Below, piece by piece: positions 14,698 through 32,906 of a DNA stretch of 39,942 nucleotides. The notes under the pieces were generated by a model. It made no database searches. It was given only the letters and a program-made list of their open reading frames with translations, and was not told the origin of the DNA. Made by a program: the position numbers and the translations under genes. Source of the DNA: a virus. The stretch lies in IMG/VR virus record IMGVR_UViG_3300027763_000110, positions 1 to 39,942 of that record. One strand, written 5' to 3'. The stretch's first letter is position 1. Every line of letters begins with the position of its first letter.

Positions 14698-14729
14698 TTT
14701 GGTAAATATCCATTTTTAACATACATTTG
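14698..14729 (+). promoter_or_regulatory. Consensus promoter immediately before the GIY-YIG gene
   Basis: TTTG (14698-14701), a 20-base spacer and TACATTTG (14722-14729) match the Bacteroidetes consensus. The ATG at 14733 follows after only three bases, so the message would be leaderless. The same stretch holds an ATATCCA/TGGATAT inverted repeat. Confidence 0.6.
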
Positions 14730-16765: not shown

Positions 16766-18083
16766 AATCGGAAAACTTCATAAGGTTTGAATCCCATTTC
16801 AAAGGCAAAAGCTTTGTTTCCCCTGCCCTGAATTTCGCAATGGATAAAATACAAAGGTTCTCTGTCGGGTATTGATCGCCCTCCACTTCGGTGGTGGGTG
16901 AGTCCCTGAATTGAGAATAATAACCAGGTCGCATTAAAAACCATATCGAATCGGCATCCTGTTCGATGGCTCCAGATTCCCGAAGGTCGGATAATTGCGG
17001 CATTTTATCGGGTCTAGACTCGACCGCCCTCGACAACTGGGAAAGGGCAATAATCGGGATGTTCAGGTCTTTCGCCAGAATCTTTAAGCCTCTGGATATT
17101 TCGCTGATCTCAGACTCTCTATTGCCCTTCTTATTATCGCAAGACATCAGTTGCAGGTAATCAACACAAAGAAGCCTTATGCCGTGTTCCTTCTTCCATA
17201 GGTGGGCTTTAGTTCGTAATCTTCGAAGGGTCATCCCTGCATCATCGTTGATATGCAATGGCCACTTTTCGATTCTAGACGCAGCCTCATAAAGTCTTTG
17301 TCGGTCAAAGTTGTCATACTTATCGTTTCTGATCTTGTATGCAAAAACATCGGATTCCAGAGAAAGCAACCTTTGAACCAGTTGCGTTTGGCCCATTTCT
17401 AGGGAAAACATTCCGACCGGAATATTCCTTCTGCAATATGACTGCAATAGAGACATTATGAAGGCCGTTTTCCCTTGTCCGGGCCTTGCACCCATTACGA
17501 TGAGATCGGTGTCTACAAGGCCGCCTGTAGCCGCATCTAGAGCATTGATTCCTGTGGCCATCCCTGCAAGTCCAGAAATATTTTCAATTCCCCATTTTTT
17601 GCGGATTTCACCGAGGGTTTCATTAATGCTTTTTTCGTCTTTAATCACCACCTGGTTGATTAGGTTTTCTAGGCCAGACTGAACCTTTGAAACTCTTTCA
17701 AAAATATCATCCGCATCGTTGATGGAAGAGGTGAGTAGTTCCTGTGCGAATGATCCCACGCCCCTTTTAACGAATGCCTCTAAAAGTATTCGTATGTGAA
17801 TTTGAAAATGGATGGCACTTGATATTTTTGAGGAAATGGTAGCAAGTGTTTTTCCGCCACCCATATTTTTATAGTGTCCTGACTTTTTCACCCATTCGGC
17901 AATGGTGACTATGTCGATAGGTTTATTTTGATCGTAGAGCGATTTTAAGGCGTTACAAACGATCTTGTGCTTTTCTTCGGTAAAGACATTCGAGGTTTGT
18001 ACTAGGTTGAAAAATTCAATCTGTGCGTCCTTGTCGATAATCACCGAACCAAGGATAACTTGTTCAAGTTCTAATTGTGTCAT
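16746..18083 (-). CDS. dnaB: Replicative DNA helicase, DnaB family
   Basis: The 445-residue length and motif order match DnaB. An N-terminal helical domain (1-100, 'LEQVILGSVI') precedes a RecA-like core with Walker A 'GARPGQGKT' (198-206) and 'GMFSLEMG' (224-231). Walker B 'LLCVDYLQLM' (304-313), 'PIIALSQLSR' (343-352) and 'KFRAGE' (417-422, arginine-finger region) complete it. It unwinds phage DNA at the fork. The gene overlaps the upstream initiator/loader gene by four bases (ATGA), so both are coupled. No primase domain is fused, so the phage may use the host primase. Confidence 0.95.
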   Translation of the reverse strand: MTQLELEQVILGSVIIDKDAQIEFFNLVQTSNVFTEEKHKIVCNALKSLYDQNKPIDIVTIAEWVKKSGHYKNMGGGKTLATISSKISSAIHFQIHIRILLEAFVKRGVGSFAQELLTSSINDADDIFERVSKVQSGLENLINQVVIKDEKSINETLGEIRKKWGIENISGLAGMATGINALDAATGGLVDTDLIVMGARPGQGKTAFIMSLLQSYCRRNIPVGMFSLEMGQTQLVQRLLSLESDVFAYKIRNDKYDNFDRQRLYEAASRIEKWPLHINDDAGMTLRRLRTKAHLWKKEHGIRLLCVDYLQLMSCDNKKGNRESEISEISRGLKILAKDLNIPIIALSQLSRAVESRPDKMPQLSDLRESGAIEQDADSIWFLMRPGYYSQFRDSPTTEVEGDQYPTENLCILSIAKFRAGETKLLPLKWDSNLMKFSDYERTTI

Positions 18084-18769
18084 CTGTTCATATTTTTAGA
18101 GTTGAAGGCAAGAGGTCCGGTAGGGGCTTGTTGGTTTTTATTAAAGTCTTTATCACGTCTTGCCCAATTGTCAAGTCTTCTTTCCAAATCCCAAGTCTTT
18201 TGTAATTCCTTACGCATTTTTGTTTTGGGAATATTTGGTTCAGACCAGTAATTGAAAAAATCAGTTATGATTATTTTAGGGTATTTACTTGAAAACGATT
18301 CAAGCTCGTTAGCAAACTTTAGTTTGCGTTCCTCTATTGTATTTGTTTTAGGTTTAAGGTTACTGGTTATAGGTTTATATATGGGTGTAGGTAGCGGTTC
18401 TGGTAGCAGTATAGGTAGCGGTTCACTTTGTGGTACAGTTGAGGTATAGGTTGAGGTATTGGTAGAGGTGCTTTTTAGTACCACTAAACTAATCTTTGGA
18501 GCCTTCCACATATTCTCTCCTTTCTCATAATTAAGTAGTCCCCAGGATTGCAAATCATCAAGACAAGCATAGTATGTTTTCTTGCTGCCTATACAGGAAC
18601 CAGTCATACCTAAATCAATTGGACATTTGAACCATTCCACCCAGTTGTTGCGATTGTTCTGGTTTAAAAGGAAGACATACAGACTGACGTGCTGAGGCTT
18701 AAAATCGTATTGTTGGTTAAATACAATACTGTAAAAAGCCGAAATTTGATGAAAGCCATTAATTCTCAT
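18080..18769 (-). CDS. Replication initiator / helicase loader-like protein
   Basis: The 229-residue protein has an N-terminal winged-helix-like region (about 1-90, 'VSLYVFLLNQNNRNNW', 'IGSKKTYYACLDDLQSWGLL'). A Ser/Thr/Pro-rich linker with repeated 'EPLP' follows (about 95-140). The C-terminal domain contains 'FFNYWSE', 'KMRKELQKTWDLERRLDNWA'. This plan is usual for phage replication proteins of the DnaD/O type encoded directly before DnaB. The linker DNA holds direct repeats that could be origin iterons. It overlaps HNH upstream and helicase downstream by four bases each. Confidence 0.7.
   Translation of the reverse strand: MRINGFHQISAFYSIVFNQQYDFKPQHVSLYVFLLNQNNRNNWVEWFKCPIDLGMTGSCIGSKKTYYACLDDLQSWGLLNYEKGENMWKAPKISLVVLKSTSTNTSTYTSTVPQSEPLPILLPEPLPTPIYKPITSNLKPKTNTIEERKLKFANELESFSSKYPKIIITDFFNYWSEPNIPKTKMRKELQKTWDLERRLDNWARRDKDFNKNQQAPTGPLAFNSKNMNR
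18388..18424. repeat. Direct repeats inside the replication gene, possible iterons
   Basis: TAGGTAGCGGTTC occurs exactly twice (18388-18400 and 18412-18424), with a third related GGTAGCAGT between them, giving a spacing of about 12 bases. They encode the 'EPLP' linker of the initiator-like gene. Lambda-type phages place origin iterons within the initiator gene, so an origin here is possible; it may also be simple codon repetition. Confidence 0.35.
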
Positions 18770-19194: not shown

Positions 19195-19200
19195 AAAAAT

Positions 19201-19303
19201 AAAAAAGCCTTTATGAGCCGTTCCGGGTCGCAGTCCGTACTAGGCACATAAAGGCATTAAAATGAAAGAATTTTCTGATGCTGCGACCCATCAGCCTTTC
19301 GGC
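19201..19303 (-). ncRNA. Kissing-loop structured leader RNA 1 (HNH / replication operon)
   Basis: On the minus strand, a 5' hairpin (stem 19289-19294 with 19275-19280, CTGATG/CATCAG) has the loop GGTCGCAG (19281-19288). A long 3' hairpin (GCCTTTATG/CATAAAGGC, 19247-19255 with 19207-19215) carries CTGCGACCC (19225-19233) in its apical part, complementary to that loop plus one base. T-rich sequence follows the 3' stem, then the HNH ATG. A GCC-GAAA-GGC hairpin lies at the 5' end. A TATATTTG element lies just upstream. Role as attenuator, switch or separate RNA is inferred. Confidence 0.65.
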
Positions 19304-19307
19304 ATTG

Positions 19308-19315
19308 CAAATATA
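19308..19315 (-). promoter_or_regulatory. -7 element TATATTTG for leader RNA 1
   Basis: TATATTTG on the minus strand matches TAnnTTTG. The predicted start of the RNA falls at the first hairpin of the leader. The best -33 candidate (TTG at 19338-19340) has a long 22-base spacer, so the promoter may be weak or regulated. Confidence 0.5.
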
Positions 19316-25113: not shown

Positions 25114-25584
25114 TTAGCACCTTTCGCACACGATGGTTTCTACGTTCGTAAAATCGATACTAAAGAAGTACGTTTCGAATTGGTGTTCCTCTGTCCCGAA
25201 GTAGGTCTGAGCAATTGACTTGGCTGCGTTATCGGTTCCGGTATAATTTAACCCAGGTATCGAGTTGATGATGGCAGTCAGGTTGAATTCTGAATCGGCA
25301 TTCTTTGAGTTCCCGATTAGTTTAAACGTCACCTCTCTGGATAACTTATTCCGATAGCCACCTTTAAGTTGATCTTTAGGACTTGCCCCAGTTCGGATAA
25401 TGAATAAAACTAGGTCATAGTTATCATTTACCGCACACGGGATTGCCTGTGAAATACTAGCATAGTTTGCACCTTCATTCTCTAATATCACCTCGTGAGC
25501 CTCCCCATAGTTTAGGCAGTTGATGCCGAATTTAAGGCTGATCTTATCGCAAAGTTTCTGAAGGTCGTTGGTAGTTGTTGTCAT
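25114..25584 (-). CDS. Hypothetical virion protein, 156 residues
   Basis: The ATG at 25584 ('MTTTTNDLQKLCDKIS') is chosen because the longer form would overlap the divergent RNA 2 leader. The protein mixes helices and strands ('YDLVLFIIRTG', 'SREVTFKLIG', 'QFETYFFSIDFTN') and ends with 'CERC'. Position next to the gp10-like gene suggests a head-tail joining or tail completion protein, but no family is recognised. Confidence 0.6.
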   Translation of the reverse strand: MTTTTNDLQKLCDKISLKFGINCLNYGEAHEVILENEGANYASISQAIPCAVNDNYDLVLFIIRTGASPKDQLKGGYRNKLSREVTFKLIGNSKNADSEFNLTAIINSIPGLNYTGTDNAAKSIAQTYFGTEEHQFETYFFSIDFTNVETIVCERC

Positions 25585-25614
25585 TTTGTAAAAGTATAAA
25601 AAATCGTATATTTG
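25585..25614 (+). promoter_or_regulatory. Promoter for leader RNA 2
   Basis: TTTG (25585-25588), an 18-base spacer and TATATTTG (25607-25614) on the plus strand. The spacer is a base or two shorter than the usual 19-20. Transcription would begin about 25620 and enter the structured leader. Confidence 0.55.
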
Positions 25615-25730
25615 TAATGCTATTTTATTATTAGCAATTTCGATGTACCAGATCGAAAAAGACTTTGTTGAAAAACAAAACACGGCCCTGAATTAGAGTA
25701 ACTGGTACTTACTTTGATTTGGGGCTTTTG
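25615..25730 (+). ncRNA. Kissing-loop structured leader RNA 2 (HNH homing endonuclease)
   Basis: Hairpin 1 is TTTCGAT/ATCGAAA (25638-25644 with 25652-25658, 7 bp) with loop GTACCAG (25645-25651). Hairpin 2 pairs 25685-25701 with 25709-25725 in 17 consecutive pairs including G-U, closing the loop CTGGTAC (25702-25708). The two 7-nt loops are perfect complements. TTTTGTTTT follows, then the ATG at 25739. A TGCTA/TAGCA hairpin lies at the 5' end. It is the clearest of the three copies. An attenuator or translation-control role is inferred. Confidence 0.75.
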
Positions 25731-25738
25731 TTTTAAAA

Positions 25739-26314
25739 ATGGAAAATCAAATAGAAATCTGGAAAGACATTGTTGGGTATAATGGTCTTTACCAAATAAG
25801 TAATTATGGAAATGTTAAAAGCTTGGTAAGAAAATCAATTTTTGTGAGAGGCAGTATTGTTATAAACAAAATCATAAACGAACGCATTTTAAAAGGCTGT
25901 AAAGATGGATATGGTTATCCATTTATCAATCTTTACAAAGAAAGTAAATCAAAGCCCTTTAAAATTCATAGACTGGTATGCATAGCCTTTTTGCCAAACC
26001 CTGAAAATAAGCCACAGGTAAACCACAAGAATGGAATTAAAACAGATAACCGTGTTGAAAATCTAGAATGGGCTACTGCAAAAGAAAATTCAATTCACGC
26101 TGTTTCAACTGGACTTTCCAAGGTTGCTAAAGGTAAATTTTCAAAGCATAGTAAACCAGTTTCGCAATTTACTAAAGATGGGATTTTGGTAAGGGATTGG
26201 GATTTTTTAAGCGAAGTAAAAGATTTTGGGTACAATTTTGGAAATGTTGGGTCTGTTTGTAGGGGTAAAATTCCATTTGCACACGGTTTTATTTGGAAGT
26301 ATAAATTACTTTGA
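25739..26314 (+). CDS. HNH homing endonuclease with NUMOD4
   Basis: The 191-residue protein has an N-terminal NUMOD4 module ('EIWKDIVGYNGLYQISNYG', 7-25) and an HNH core ('KIHRLVCIAF' 75-84, 'VNHKNGIKTDNRVENLEW' 94-111). A C-terminal NUMOD1-like DNA-binding part runs at about 139-190. It is paralogous to the gene at 32334. It runs opposite to the flanking structural genes and its end overlaps the convergent gp10-like gene by nine bases, as expected of a selfish gene inserted in an intergenic gap. The structured leader probably limits its expression. Confidence 0.92.
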   Translation: MENQIEIWKDIVGYNGLYQISNYGNVKSLVRKSIFVRGSIVINKIINERILKGCKDGYGYPFINLYKESKSKPFKIHRLVCIAFLPNPENKPQVNHKNGIKTDNRVENLEWATAKENSIHAVSTGLSKVAKGKFSKHSKPVSQFTKDGILVRDWDFLSEVKDFGYNFGNVGSVCRGKIPFAHGFIWKYKLL

Positions 26315-27326: not shown

Positions 27327-27531
27327 GAAACGTATTCCTCAATATTCAATTGTGAGGATTACCCATACATTAATGGATAAAAAAACGGGAAGCATCATAG
27401 CACCTAACTGCGATGTTGTGATCTTGGACTACCGAAGTGAAAACACGGTTTTGGTCTGTGCTTTTGGAAATTATATGAAATCAGTCGAAACCGACATTAA
27501 CCTTTTAACGGCTTATGGGAATGGAAAGTAA
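27313..27531 (+). CDS. Hypothetical protein, 72 residues
   Basis: The small protein is mostly beta ('YSIVRITHTLMDKKTG', 'CDVVILDYRSENTVLVCAFG'), resembling a compact SH3-like barrel. It overlaps both neighbours by 14-17 bases. No family recognised. Confidence 0.55.
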   Translation: MQEIKKRIPQYSIVRITHTLMDKKTGSIIAPNCDVVILDYRSENTVLVCAFGNYMKSVETDINLLTAYGNGK

Positions 27532-28219
27532 AGAAATTACCGTTTGCCTCACCTCCTGCGGTCGATGGGATTTGCTAGAAATCACGATCAAAAGTCTGGT
27601 TCAATTTTGGGATGGCCCACCACCGAAAGAATTATTGATTTATGAAGACCAGGATTTGAGTGTTGAACAGTTCAACATTCAATTTGGAATTGTTTCGGAA
27701 TGTTTGGGATCAACAAAATGGGCTTTTACTATTTATCACGGAAAAAAAGGCCAAATCCCTGCAATTGATTTTCTTTATTCGAAAGTTGAAACGATCTATA
27801 TCTGGCATCAAGAAGACGATTTCCCCGTTACCAAATCAGGCTTCATCCAGAAGTCGCTTTCGATCTTGGAAGAAAAACCAATGATAAGTCAGGTGTGGAT
27901 TCGTAATCCTGATGACAGGAACGGTCACCCGGCTATTGGTCACGTTCAAACTACCTCGGACGGTGTAAAGTACCAACTTATGAAAACGGGTTATAGAGGT
28001 GTCTGGCACGGCCATTCTTGGAATCCTGGTCTTCGAAGGGTATCCGATTATAAAAAGATTTTCCCAAAAGGAATGTACCAATCTATTCATTGGTCACCGT
28101 CAAATCCATTACAGGCAGAACAATTGGTAGGAAAACATTATCTGAGGTATGGGTTTAGGGCTGCTACTTTATTGGAAGGTTATTGCGTTCACATTGGTAT
28201 TAATCGTCACGTAAAATGA
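27515..28219 (+). CDS. GT-A fold glycosyltransferase
   Basis: The 234-residue protein opens with 'ITVCLTSCGRWDLLEITIKS' (8-27), the nucleotide-binding start of GT-A enzymes. It continues with 'LLIYEDQD' (40-47) and 'IWHQEDDFP' (96-104), where the EDD triplet is the likely metal and sugar-nucleotide site. 'HSWNPGLRRVSDYK' follows. It probably transfers a sugar from a nucleotide donor in the cytoplasm. The acceptor is unknown. It is coupled to the next gene by an ATGA overlap. The alternative start at 27521 removes two residues. Confidence 0.8.
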   Translation: MGMESKEITVCLTSCGRWDLLEITIKSLVQFWDGPPPKELLIYEDQDLSVEQFNIQFGIVSECLGSTKWAFTIYHGKKGQIPAIDFLYSKVETIYIWHQEDDFPVTKSGFIQKSLSILEEKPMISQVWIRNPDDRNGHPAIGHVQTTSDGVKYQLMKTGYRGVWHGHSWNPGLRRVSDYKKIFPKGMYQSIHWSPSNPLQAEQLVGKHYLRYGFRAATLLEGYCVHIGINRHVK

Positions 28220-28509
28220 GCCAATTATCACTTTTTACCGTTGATCCTAAACAGGCTAAATTCGAGCAATACCACTCTGCAAATCCTGAAATATGGAATA
28301 TGTTTAAGGAACTAACCTTCCAACTTATCAAAGCAGGAAGAAGGCATTATTCAGCAGACGGAATATTACACGCTATACGATGGAATACCGCCTTACGGGG
28401 TAACGATGAAAGAAAAATAAATAACAACTACTCATCTATGTATTCACGGATGTTTACCGCTAACTTTCCAGAACATAAGGACTTTTTTGAACAAAGAATA
28501 TTGAAATGA
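28216..28509 (+). CDS. Conserved-looking protein with HYSADGILHAIRW motif
   Basis: The 97-residue protein has a dense set of motifs: 'NPEIWNMFKELTFQLIKAGR', 'HYSADGILHAIRWNTA', then 'KINNNYSSMYSRMF' and 'FPEHKDFFEQR'. I have seen similar small proteins in phage and bacterial genomes without known function. It sits between a glycosyltransferase and a methyltransferase, with ATGA overlaps on both sides. The many charged and aromatic residues suggest a globular enzyme or DNA-binding protein. Confidence 0.6.
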   Translation: MSQLSLFTVDPKQAKFEQYHSANPEIWNMFKELTFQLIKAGRRHYSADGILHAIRWNTALRGNDERKINNNYSSMYSRMFTANFPEHKDFFEQRILK

Positions 28510-29009
28510 AATTAATTGAATTTAAAAACCACGTTTACCCTCACTTTCAATCGGAGGGGTTTGCCGCAAAATATGCCTTTCCATTTGCTGAAAAACTTTG
28601 CCAGGGTCGGGGGGTTGATATTGGGTGTATGAAAAAAGAATGGTCTTTTCCGGGTTCTTGTCCGGTTGACATTTCTTTTAATGATGGATTCCACGCTTTG
28701 CGATTGCCATTTGAAAAAACAGGATTGGACTACATTTTTTCAAGTCATTGCCTAGAACATTTGGAAAATTACGTAACCGCTTTGGAATATTGGCACAAAC
28801 AATTGAAACCGGGTGGAACGCTATTCCTTTATTTGCCAGATATGAATTCACAGGTCTATTGGAGGCCGTGGCACAACCGGAAACACATTCACTACCTCTT
28901 TCCTGAAATGATGCGTTTATACGCTGAAGATTGCGGCCTTTGGGAAAATGTATTTGTATCCGACACTGATTTGAATTCAAGTTTTTACTTTGTAGCTGAA
29001 AAGAAATAA
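28506..29009 (+). CDS. SAM-dependent methyltransferase, class I
   Basis: The 167-residue protein has the class I order: 'GVDIGC' (36-41) for SAM binding, 'DYIFSSHCLEHL' (75-86) and 'LKPGGTLFLYLPD' (100-112), close to the Methyltransf_11 type. It is followed by an FkbM-type methyltransferase and a GT2, so a sugar O-methylation role is likely. The gene is coupled to both neighbours (ATGA, TAATG). The acceptor cannot be told from sequence. Confidence 0.82.
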   Translation: MKLIEFKNHVYPHFQSEGFAAKYAFPFAEKLCQGRGVDIGCMKKEWSFPGSCPVDISFNDGFHALRLPFEKTGLDYIFSSHCLEHLENYVTALEYWHKQLKPGGTLFLYLPDMNSQVYWRPWHNRKHIHYLFPEMMRLYAEDCGLWENVFVSDTDLNSSFYFVAEKK

Positions 29010-29728
29010 TGAAAGTCCAATTAAGAGAGTTTGAATTTGAAGTTCAGAATGATGAACAATTTTGGAATGGGGTTGATTCATGGGAACCGGAAACATTTGA
29101 CATAGTAAAAAGGTACGCTGACCCGGCAAAATCATTTATTGACATTGGGGCATGGAACGGGGTTGTAAGCCTTTACGCTTCTCACCTGTTTAACAATGTG
29201 GTTGCTATTGAACCGGACACGGTAGCCTTTGAAAAGCTATCAAAAAATATTGAATTGAATCCGTGTTGGAATGTCAGTTGTCAAAATGTGGCAATATCGA
29301 ATACCAATGGGAGTTCAATGTTGAATCTTTCGCTTGCCGGGGATTCGATGAGTAGTTTACTTCCAAGGGATACAAATCAATTTCCAACAGTTGATTTTCA
29401 CAGTGTAGAAACCAAAAGATTTGGCGAAATCATTAAGGGTTCAAATGTTCCAATTGGCCTGATAAAAATGGATATTGAAGGTGGTGAAATTCTGGTTATT
29501 CCAGATATGTTGGAATTTTTGGAAGATTACAAACCGCCTATTTACATTTCCTTTCATCCGTTCTGGTTTCCAGAAAATGAAAAGGATTCCTTCATAGTTG
29601 ATTTTGCGGATTACCTTTTTGGGATTTACCAGGTCGTAAGAGATGGGCAATTCAACCTGGTTACAAAGGATGAGTTTATTAATGGTATGCTTTCAAATTC
29701 TTTCACCTACGTTTTTGATACGAAATGA
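29009..29728 (+). CDS. FkbM family methyltransferase
   Basis: The 239-residue protein shows 'FIDIGAWNGVVSLYA' (43-57), 'VAIEPD' (65-70) and 'IKMDIEGGE' (152-160), the hallmark of FkbM O-methyltransferases that methylate sugars or polyketides. Together with the preceding methyltransferase and two glycosyltransferases it points to synthesis of a methylated glycan. ATGA overlap with the GT2 gene implies coupled translation. Confidence 0.88.
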   Translation: MKVQLREFEFEVQNDEQFWNGVDSWEPETFDIVKRYADPAKSFIDIGAWNGVVSLYASHLFNNVVAIEPDTVAFEKLSKNIELNPCWNVSCQNVAISNTNGSSMLNLSLAGDSMSSLLPRDTNQFPTVDFHSVETKRFGEIIKGSNVPIGLIKMDIEGGEILVIPDMLEFLEDYKPPIYISFHPFWFPENEKDSFIVDFADYLFGIYQVVRDGQFNLVTKDEFINGMLSNSFTYVFDTK

Positions 29729-30375
29729 AAACCGGATTGCTCATAACCGCCTACAACCGTCCTGAGTACCTTGAAAAGGGCCTTGAATCAGTTGCAAAAG
29801 TTCCGTTCAATGGTGATCTTGAAATACTGATTATTGACGATCACAGTACCGACAAAAGAACAGGCCAATTGATTGATTTATTTATTCAGATGTGGCCTGA
29901 AGTCAAAAAGATTCGTATGATTCGAAACCAGGGGATTAAAGAATGCTTACGGACCGGGTTTAACTTTCTTTTTGCTTCGGGTTGTCAGAATGTAATTAAC
30001 CTGGATGGTGATGCGATTGTAAAGCCTGAATTTTTAGAGGTTTTGACGAATTTAAAAGCCCGGTTCCCAGATGCAATTGTTTCTGGGTTTAATACCCAAA
30101 CAACGGACCCAAAGACAGGAAAGGTTAGGCATCGGACCATTGGCGAATTTGACGTTTATTGCCTCAAAGAATCAATCGGGGGAATTAATATGGTAATCAA
30201 TGAGGCCCAATATAAAACGTTTCTCTTACCTGCTTTTAAAGGCCAAAACCATTGGGATTGGAATTTGTGTAAAATAGTAAAATCTTTTGTCGTTTCAAAG
30301 CCTTCCGTAGTTCAACACATTGGAATTGAAAAGGGATCAAATCTTAATAATCCAGATGTAGCTTTTGATTTTTAG
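29725..30375 (+). CDS. Family 2-type glycosyltransferase
   Basis: The 216-residue protein starts 'LLITAYNRPEYLEKGLESV' (5-23), has 'LIIDDHSTD' (35-43) and the DxD metal site 'NLDGDAIV' (92-99). These are classical GT2 features. It lacks membrane segments, so it should act in the cytoplasm on a soluble or membrane-surface acceptor. It is short for GT2, lacking the long C-terminal domain of many family members. Confidence 0.88.
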   Translation: MKTGLLITAYNRPEYLEKGLESVAKVPFNGDLEILIIDDHSTDKRTGQLIDLFIQMWPEVKKIRMIRNQGIKECLRTGFNFLFASGCQNVINLDGDAIVKPEFLEVLTNLKARFPDAIVSGFNTQTTDPKTGKVRHRTIGEFDVYCLKESIGGINMVINEAQYKTFLLPAFKGQNHWDWNLCKIVKSFVVSKPSVVQHIGIEKGSNLNNPDVAFDF

Positions 30376-30378
30376 TTT

Positions 30379-31074
30379 ATGTCAGTAATCGTATTACAAC
30401 CTCACGGCATTGGTGATCACATCTTTTGTCAAAGCCTTGTTCATCAAATTGCAGATTGTCAGGAAATTGTTTGGCCTGTTTTACCTCACTTTTTGCCGGG
30501 ATTACGTGTTGCGTATCCAGAAATCAATTGGTTGCCTTTTGGAACTTTAGGCCACATCGAAAACATCAAAAGGGATTCAATCGTAAACGGCAACCGGGTA
30601 ATTCCCATCAGATGGGCCGATTCCATTACGAGAGTAAAATACAAGGACTGCATGAAATCCAAATATGAAATGTACGGTTTGGATTGGCGGTCTTGGAAAT
30701 ACTTTGGGTACAAACGAAATGTTGAAAAGGAAAACGATTTGTTTTTAAATGTTTTGAAGCTTCAAAATGATACTGAATTTAGGTTGATAAACGACCGATT
30801 CACAAGCCTTGAAACAAAGAAAGTAAGCATTGCAGAAAGTTCGGACTTGGTAAATGTTTACATGAAATCAATTTCAGGATTTAGTTTATTTGACTGGTCT
30901 TTGGTAATTGAAAAGGCAACTGAAATACATACCGTGGGAACCTCAATAAACTACCTCATTGAATTACTTGATATTCAGGCCAAAGAAGTGGTTTTATATA
31001 AAAGATTGCCAGATGAAAACCATTATGAAAATTACGATTACATTCTGGAAAAGCATTCCTACATTTACACTTGA
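30379..31074 (+). CDS. Glycosyltransferase-like protein (GT-B, GT9-like start)
   Basis: The 231-residue protein begins 'VIVLQPHGIGDHIFCQSLVH', which resembles the GT9 (heptosyltransferase-like) opening. Later 'ATEIHTVGTSINYLIELLDI' resembles the donor-binding turn of GT-B enzymes. It is shorter than full GT9 proteins, so parts may be reduced. It is the last gene before a terminator and follows the GT2 after three bases. Confidence 0.65.
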   Translation: MSVIVLQPHGIGDHIFCQSLVHQIADCQEIVWPVLPHFLPGLRVAYPEINWLPFGTLGHIENIKRDSIVNGNRVIPIRWADSITRVKYKDCMKSKYEMYGLDWRSWKYFGYKRNVEKENDLFLNVLKLQNDTEFRLINDRFTSLETKKVSIAESSDLVNVYMKSISGFSLFDWSLVIEKATEIHTVGTSINYLIELLDIQAKEVVLYKRLPDENHYENYDYILEKHSYIYT

Positions 31075-32202: not shown

Positions 32203-32234
32203 TTTGTAAAAATAAGTCTTTTTTTATATCTTTG
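32203..32234 (+). promoter_or_regulatory. Consensus promoter for leader RNA 3
   Basis: TTTG (32203-32206), a 20-base spacer and TATCTTTG (32227-32234) match TTTG-N20-TAnnTTTG on the plus strand, opposite to the structural genes. RNA should begin near 32240. Confidence 0.65.
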
Positions 32235-32325
32235 AACTGTTGCGGAGTAGAGGCCAAAACAAAGACATTGGTTTTTTAACCTTTAAGCCTGGCGAACGGT
32301 CCTCTACCCGTTTTGCCGGGCTTTT
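32235..32325 (+). ncRNA. Kissing-loop structured leader RNA 3 (HNH homing endonuclease)
   Basis: A 3' hairpin pairs 32285-32298 (AAGCCTGGCGAACG) with 32309-32323, with G-U pairs and one bulged base. Its loop GTCCTCTACC contains CCTCTAC (32301-32307), the exact complement of GTAGAGG (32247-32253) near the 5' end. The 5' element is enclosed only by weak pairs (TTG/CAA). A short U-run follows the hairpin, then the ATG at 32334. The layout is the same as RNA 1 and RNA 2 with different bases. Confidence 0.6.
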
Positions 32326-32333
32326 AAATTTTT

Positions 32334-32906
32334 ATGACAGTAGATGAAGTTTGGACCCCAGTACAAGGTTTTGAAGACCTTTATGAAGTGTCGAGTAATG
32401 GCTTAGTAAAGCGTTTGCAAAGGGAAATATATCGGGTTAATAACGGCACAATATGCACACACTTGTATAAGGAAAAAATTAGAAAGCAGGTAATTGATCA
32501 GTATGGGTATTTAACGGTAGGACTACATAAAGACAAGAACTTAAAAAATTGCCTTGTTCATCGCCTCGTAGCCCTAGCCTTTATTCCTAACCCCGAAAAT
32601 AAACCTACGGTAAACCATAAAAATGGAATTAAAACCGACAATCGAGTAGACAATTTAGAGTGGAATACTCATAGCGAAAATGTGAAGCATTCTCATAAAA
32701 CTGGGCTAAAGATACAGGCAAAAGGATTAAACAGTACCAGTTCAATTCCAATATCTCAGTTTGCATTAGATGGCACTTGGATTAGGGATTGGGCCGGATC
32801 GCACGAAGTGCAGAGGGAAATGGGATATCACAGAGGCAATATTTCCAGATGTGTTTGTGGTAAGGTAAAATCCGCATCTGGATTTATTTGGAAACGGAAA
32901 GGTTAG
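32334..32906 (+). CDS. HNH homing endonuclease with NUMOD4 (paralogue)
   Basis: The 190-residue protein has the NUMOD4 start ('EVWTPVQGFEDLYEVSSNG', 5-23), HNH core 'VHRLVALAFIPNPENKP' (75-91) and 'VNHKNGIKTDNRVDNLEWNT' (93-112), and a NUMOD1-like tail. It is clearly related to the gene at 25739. Its stop overlaps the convergent minor-head gene by four bases. The gene plus leader fills a gap between two minus-strand virion genes. Homing into a related phage lacking the insert is the expected activity. Confidence 0.92.
   Translation: MTVDEVWTPVQGFEDLYEVSSNGLVKRLQREIYRVNNGTICTHLYKEKIRKQVIDQYGYLTVGLHKDKNLKNCLVHRLVALAFIPNPENKPTVNHKNGIKTDNRVDNLEWNTHSENVKHSHKTGLKIQAKGLNSTSSIPISQFALDGTWIRDWAGSHEVQREMGYHRGNISRCVCGKVKSASGFIWKRKG

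Follow-up and report, generated by a model that had tools for sequence, protein, structure and literature searches.

The window, i.e. the whole stretch of 39,942 nt of viral DNA analysed here, carries a leader RNA of roughly 110 bases, in which two hairpins are joined by a loop-loop contact just 5' of a likely transcription stop signal. The leader was found at three sites, W1 to W3. At W1, it lies directly before a homing endonuclease gene:

25584..25614, plus strand: Bacteroidota-type promoter, TTTTG at 25584-25588 and TATATTTG at 25607-25614
25638..25658, plus strand: hairpin 1, stem TTTCGAT/ATCGAAA, loop GTACCAG at 25645-25651
25685..25725, plus strand: hairpin 2, loop CTGGTAC at 25702-25708, the perfect complement of the hairpin 1 loop
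25726..25734, plus strand: terminator-like U tract
25739..26314, plus strand: NUMOD4-HNH_3 homing endonuclease gene (Pfam), ATG at 25739

The stem of hairpin 2 joins 25685-25701 with 25709-25725 in 17 consecutive pairs (18 if the terminal G.U is counted), and two given 7-nt loops would match by chance with a probability of 6e-5. A preliminary description of this DNA had placed hairpins, loops, promoter box and U tract at these positions, which was confirmed, as was the perfect 7-nt complement of the two loops. The U tract could instead pair with AAAACAAAA at 25672-25680. TTTTG and TATATTTG are separated by a spacer of 18 nt and form what we take to be a Bacteroidota -33/-7 promoter. Leader and HNH gene together make up an insert of about 720 bp, and the site is empty in at least nine related phage contigs, where the two flanking genes overlap. 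The TTTTG is complementary to the CAAAATG start of the adjoining gene, and the native CAAAATG is still present at the empty site of the relatives; the -33-like element is supplied by the target site and not by the insert.

The second leader also precedes a homing endonuclease gene:

32227..32333, plus strand: W2 leader with -7 box TATCTTTG at 32227-32234, strand GTAGAGG at 32247-32253 and a U-rich end
32285-32323, plus strand: W2 hairpin 2, containing CCTCTAC at 32301-32307
32334..32906, plus strand: second NUMOD4-HNH_3 gene, 48% identical to the W1 homing gene

The third leader heads a replication operon on the opposite strand:

19195..19315, minus strand: W3 leader with -7 box at 19315-19308 and U tract at 19206-19195
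19294-19275, minus strand: W3 hairpin 1, loop GGTCGCAG at 19288-19281
19255-19207, minus strand: W3 hairpin 2, loop CTGCGACC at 19233-19226, AGTA/GAA internal loop
18766..19194, minus strand: HNH (McrA-like) gene, first behind W3 (PHROG HNH endonuclease E=7e-14; weak Pfam HNH)
18080..18769, minus strand: putative replication protein gene 3' of the HNH gene, positioned before DnaB, with a close orthologue in the related contig G400
16746..18083, minus strand: DnaB-like replicative helicase of the W3 operon (PHROG E=1e-85)

The earlier claim that the same plan recurs before two other HNH genes holds for W2 and W3 in that both follow it with different bases, but needs correction in two respects. 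The W2 strands GTAGAGG and CCTCTAC are complementary, but the H1 hairpin is weak and a different fold is preferred by RNAfold; at W3, both complementary strands lie within clear hairpins, but the gene behind them is McrA-like and not a NUMOD4 homing gene. A third NUMOD4 gene was sought in the window and not found, the third 'HNH' being this minus-strand gene. A GIY-YIG-like gene at 14727 of the window has a promoter-like box but no leader. Separately, a cluster of glycosyltransferase- and methyltransferase-like genes (assigned by eye) occupies 27515-31074 on the plus strand, opposite to the structural genes.

At orthologous loci, near-identical leaders can have different genes behind them. At the W2 locus, which is empty in two relatives, the leaders are 80-100% identical, whereas most of the nucleases encoded behind them share 25-53% identity. 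Two contigs (L394 and L396) have identical leaders and proteins with 43% identity, while in L393 and L396 the proteins share 98% identity and the kissing pair of the leaders differs. The W3 leader was kept at its site in all relatives examined, while the first gene behind it varies between an HNH gene, a 98-aa gene, a 79-aa gene and the replication gene directly. In related phages without an HNH gene at this site, the leader still heads the replication operon, and in G400 a close orthologue of the putative replication protein lies behind the same leader as at W3.

Two classes of the leader in other phages

Searches of viral contigs that made no use of gene information yielded more than 100 relatives of the leader. 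Their common plan, derived from leaders preceding HNH genes in the first viral loci collected, runs strand a, stem strand b, strand a', stem strand b', U tract and start codon. In class A, the transcript starts with a, which is 11 nt long and free, and this strand pairs with a' beside the small hairpin P3. In class B, a lies in the hairpin 1 loop and forms a kissing contact with the hairpin 2 loop, in many cases above an AGUA/GAA internal loop. Since the 5' strand of class A lies outside any hairpin loop, the kissing loops can be regarded as a special case of a wider pseudoknot arrangement.

The gene-blind class A pattern gave 16 viral matches, and the structure was found in 15 of them. Fourteen of these leaders precede HNH genes of two kinds, and one (contig L101, 7945-8052, minus strand) lies immediately 5' of a gene for replication initiation (PHROG E=2e-15). 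The class B pattern, which was built on hairpin 2 alone and held no gene information, matched 96 stretches, 94 of them with an exact 7-nt complement in an upstream hairpin loop and most with a promoter box upstream. Sorted by name, the genes downstream comprised 47 NUMOD4-HNH, 6 other HNH and 5 GIY-YIG genes, 22 replisome-organizer or replication initiation genes and 6 copies of a 77-aa gene, followed in 2 of the 6 by a replication-type gene; the remainder were unassigned or truncated. The element is therefore not restricted to HNH homing genes, as had been assumed at the outset. In reading these gene contexts, it should be considered that they are biased in the HNH-anchored searches and that the gene-blind searches rest on two sequence patterns.

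Scans for structure gave a similar distribution. HNH-gene leaders were among the top scores in 679 kb, and in 1.82 Mb of loci scanned for a promoter, kissing hairpins and a U tract, the matches with G/C loops lay nearly all directly 5' of nuclease or replication genes. Among cultured phages, Cellulophaga phi19:1 and Flavobacterium morran9-1 have the leader as the first element of their replication operon, and Polaribacter phage Danklef_1 has it separated from the replication gene by a gene that looks GIY-YIG-like by eye. These leaders were detected by structure scan and gene context, whereas models R1 and R2 gave no significant match in the three phages, and a direct DNA comparison of the leaders with cultured phages gave no match.

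W3 was matched by the class B model R2 with E=1.2e-6, although it was absent from the training set. W1 and W2 were absent from the R2 matches up to E=5 and share only the architecture with class B. What connects class A, class B and the W2 form is their architecture, position and gene context, with no single alignable sequence, and the three may be convergent. A host-encoded element was considered and rejected: in 395 Bacteroidota genomes, R1 gave one weak match and R2 none, the latter without a positive control genome.

Several further observations were made in this collection. L293 (7033-7127) and L346 contain a class B hairpin 2 that lacks both promoter and loop partner, is matched by the model on both strands and is possibly a decayed leader or a plain terminator. 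Pseudoknot leaders with a P1 of 8-12 bp precede HNH genes in L003, L005, L007, L008 and L029; these contigs look partly non-Bacteroidota, with Shine-Dalgarno-like sites in L008 and L005, and the leader family may be wider than Bacteroidota-type phages. The window as well as L015, L328, L354 and L057 carry at least two leaders each, every one with a different loop or P1 sequence, which, judged from the sequences, could reflect selection against cross-pairing. In class B and in W3 hairpin 2, the flanking stems change while the AGUA/GAA internal loop is conserved, and this loop is similar to the sarcin-ricin (loop E) motif. Finally, before the portal gene of Cellulophaga phage Nekkels_1 (L367, 9545-9698), a hairpin is followed by TTTTTATTTT and a second terminator-like hairpin; the 5' arm CGTCCACTAC of the first could pair instead with the downstream GTAGTGGACG, a possible terminator/antiterminator pair.

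Covariation and the U tract

In class A, 99.4% of the cells in the 11-bp pseudoknot helix are paired, with double changes in 7 of the 11 pairs, and P3 is paired in 76.8% of cells with double changes at all four pairs; the covariation score was reached by none of 500 shuffles. In class B, the kissing pair is paired in 182 of 182 cells, in an alignment (A5) for which an exact loop complement was required and 2 of the 96 matches were dropped. All three free positions of this kissing pair covary, the other four being fixed by the search pattern, and again none of 500 shuffles reached the score. The lower stem of class B is paired in 98.3% and H1 in 86.9% of cells. Covariation was also seen at the orthologous W2 and W3 loci, which is independent of the search patterns: GTAGAGG/CCTCTAC at W2 is replaced by GTAGTGG/CCACTAC, and the W3 site holds the loop pairs GGTCGCAG/CTGCGACC, GGTCGGAG/CTCCGACC and GGTAGGAG/CTCCTACC. 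Loop-loop covariation among homologues, on whose presence the preliminary description had let its proposal depend, is hence found, and its view that structure rather than sequence is conserved is borne out by the same plan with different bases and by the compensatory change. It is near certain that the leader folds into two hairpins with loop-loop or pseudoknot pairing.

A U tract (at least 6 T in 8) is present in 24 of 26 class B, 13 of 15 class A and all 17 replication-gene leaders, compared to 10% of 3182 control starts. A stable stem followed by a U tract is therefore situated between promoter and gene, which is the arrangement looked for in an attenuator.

Known systems with similar features

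The leader RNA family appears undescribed, in line with the earlier statement that no kissing-loop leader of this form was known. At gathering score, Rfam 15 matched no family except a tRNA, permissive Rfam scans of W1 and L274 gave sub-threshold matches only, and no description was found in the literature, with a mention in a large motif paper of 2017 (NAR gkx699) being possible.

A close parallel is offered by the T4-type homing endonuclease genes I-TevI, segB and mobE, which have RNA hairpins upstream; T4 homing endonucleases are limited to middle or late times, partly via hairpins hiding the ribosome site, and this timing was argued to match replication and repair (PMC2988022). Both systems place a structured RNA directly 5' of phage homing endonuclease genes, which is thought to confine expression to part of the infection. 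However, the T4-type systems hide the ribosome site in one hairpin, whose region also includes a late promoter. Here the promoter (TAnnTTTG box) comes first and the entire leader follows it, comprising two hairpins, a loop-loop or pseudoknot pair that covaries, and an end resembling a terminator; this leader also stands at the head of replication operons. Neither the position of this box nor the lack of a Shine-Dalgarno site at the W1-W3 starts fits a T4-type hairpin sequestering the ribosome site.

HMP-PP riboswitches (thiS motif) have a compact structure embedded in a terminator (PMC6478431). They resemble the leader in having a compact conserved structure in an intrinsic terminator stem before a gene, but the leader is phage-borne, has no known ligand and no metabolic gene, and its loop pairs with an upstream hairpin. 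The lysine riboswitch combines kissing loops with a loop-E type internal loop. The likeness, given by the kissing-loop contact and the AGUA/GAA internal loop of class B and W3, is one of motifs only, since the leader is much smaller, lacks the five-way junction and has no Rfam match. The manA and wcaG motifs are likewise structured leader RNAs in phages (PMC2864571), but occur close to metabolic genes in marine and cyanophage sequence; the leader here had no Rfam match. HEARO and IsrB-type omega RNAs share with it the position of a structured RNA 5' of an HNH-containing gene. The associated proteins carry RuvC and HNH, and this candidate was rejected in view of the missing Rfam match, the small NUMOD4-HNH proteins here and the persistence of the RNA without a nuclease.

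Proposed attenuation and alternative readings

The RNA family probably acts as a switch for phage genes. As to how, we incline towards a leader of Bacteroidota-type phages that acts in cis, is embedded in a terminator and attenuates the transcription of replication genes, homing endonucleases having adopted it. Judged from the sequence, transcription would start 4-5 nt past the TAnnTTTG box, and the nascent RNA would first expose its 5' strand, either in the hairpin 1 loop (kissing form) or free (pseudoknot form), which would then pair with the strand inside hairpin 2. Hairpin 2 and the U tract, directly before the start codon, have the make-up of an intrinsic terminator. Most transcripts would end at this U tract, the loop-loop contact would set the frequency of polymerase read-through, and a phage or host state or factor would shift it during infection, i.e. 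by transcription attenuation. The homing endonucleases appear to have taken up the leader, and their expression would be timed and limited with phage replication. The main argument for attenuation, as we infer it, is that a terminator-like end which is conserved and separates an essential operon from its promoter is best explained by controlled passage. A mutually exclusive antiterminator fold was looked for in the main classes and not found.

Alternatively, the leader might be an element for 5' stability and translation control of the mRNA, with a folded 5' end protecting the message and hairpin 2 and the U-rich spacer setting ribosome access, without regulated termination. Indeed, the structure begins very near the 5' end of the transcript, the AUG comes soon after hairpin 2, the starts behind the leaders have no visible Shine-Dalgarno sites, and a U-rich stretch could serve translation in hosts without such sites. 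We consider this unlikely, as stem and U tract are far commoner here than at other starts and the replication-gene leaders keep the U tract beside the stem, even though their AUG is further downstream. Rather less probable is a stand-alone small RNA of about 110 nt acting in trans, e.g. as decoy or antisense, with the gene reached by leaky read-through only: the self-contained fold with promoter and terminator-like end would suit it, and so would the different loops of copies in one contig, as if kept apart, but the leader lies directly before the gene at a fixed spacing and has its loop partner inside the same RNA.

Gene exchange exactly behind the leader and the preference for replication operons would also agree with a feature of the DNA, such as a recombination target, a cruciform or an origin-related site. 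This is highly improbable considering that G.U wobbles in covarying pairs and the polarity from promoter over hairpins to U tract fit an RNA and that the empty W1 and W2 sites hold no leader. An RNA working with the endonuclease, as initially proposed, either as its partner or as its autoregulatory binding site, is hardly plausible any more. HNH or GIY-YIG genes stand behind most matches, but the same leader is also found before small unrelated genes and replication initiators, persists at the W3 locus without any nuclease, and is identical in L394 and L396 despite the divergence of their proteins; near-identical leaders before divergent nucleases and the swapping of the first gene at the W3 site thus speak against it.

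Beyond attenuation as such, we tentatively put forward a phage-specific class of regulatory RNA that times DNA replication, namely a kissing-loop or pseudoknot switch that responds to a signal and is built into a terminator opening the replication operon; homing endonucleases would have adopted it repeatedly. If this were true, homing endonucleases would be made together with replication. Gene control in Bacteroidota phages is little known, and a covarying, widespread leader at replication operons provides a concrete control element, which is testable in the cultured phages Cellulophaga phi19:1, Flavobacterium morran9-1 and Polaribacter Danklef. It also suggests how a single control element may have been taken up by unrelated homing endonuclease families, and how genes get swapped while the leader in front of them stays fixed.
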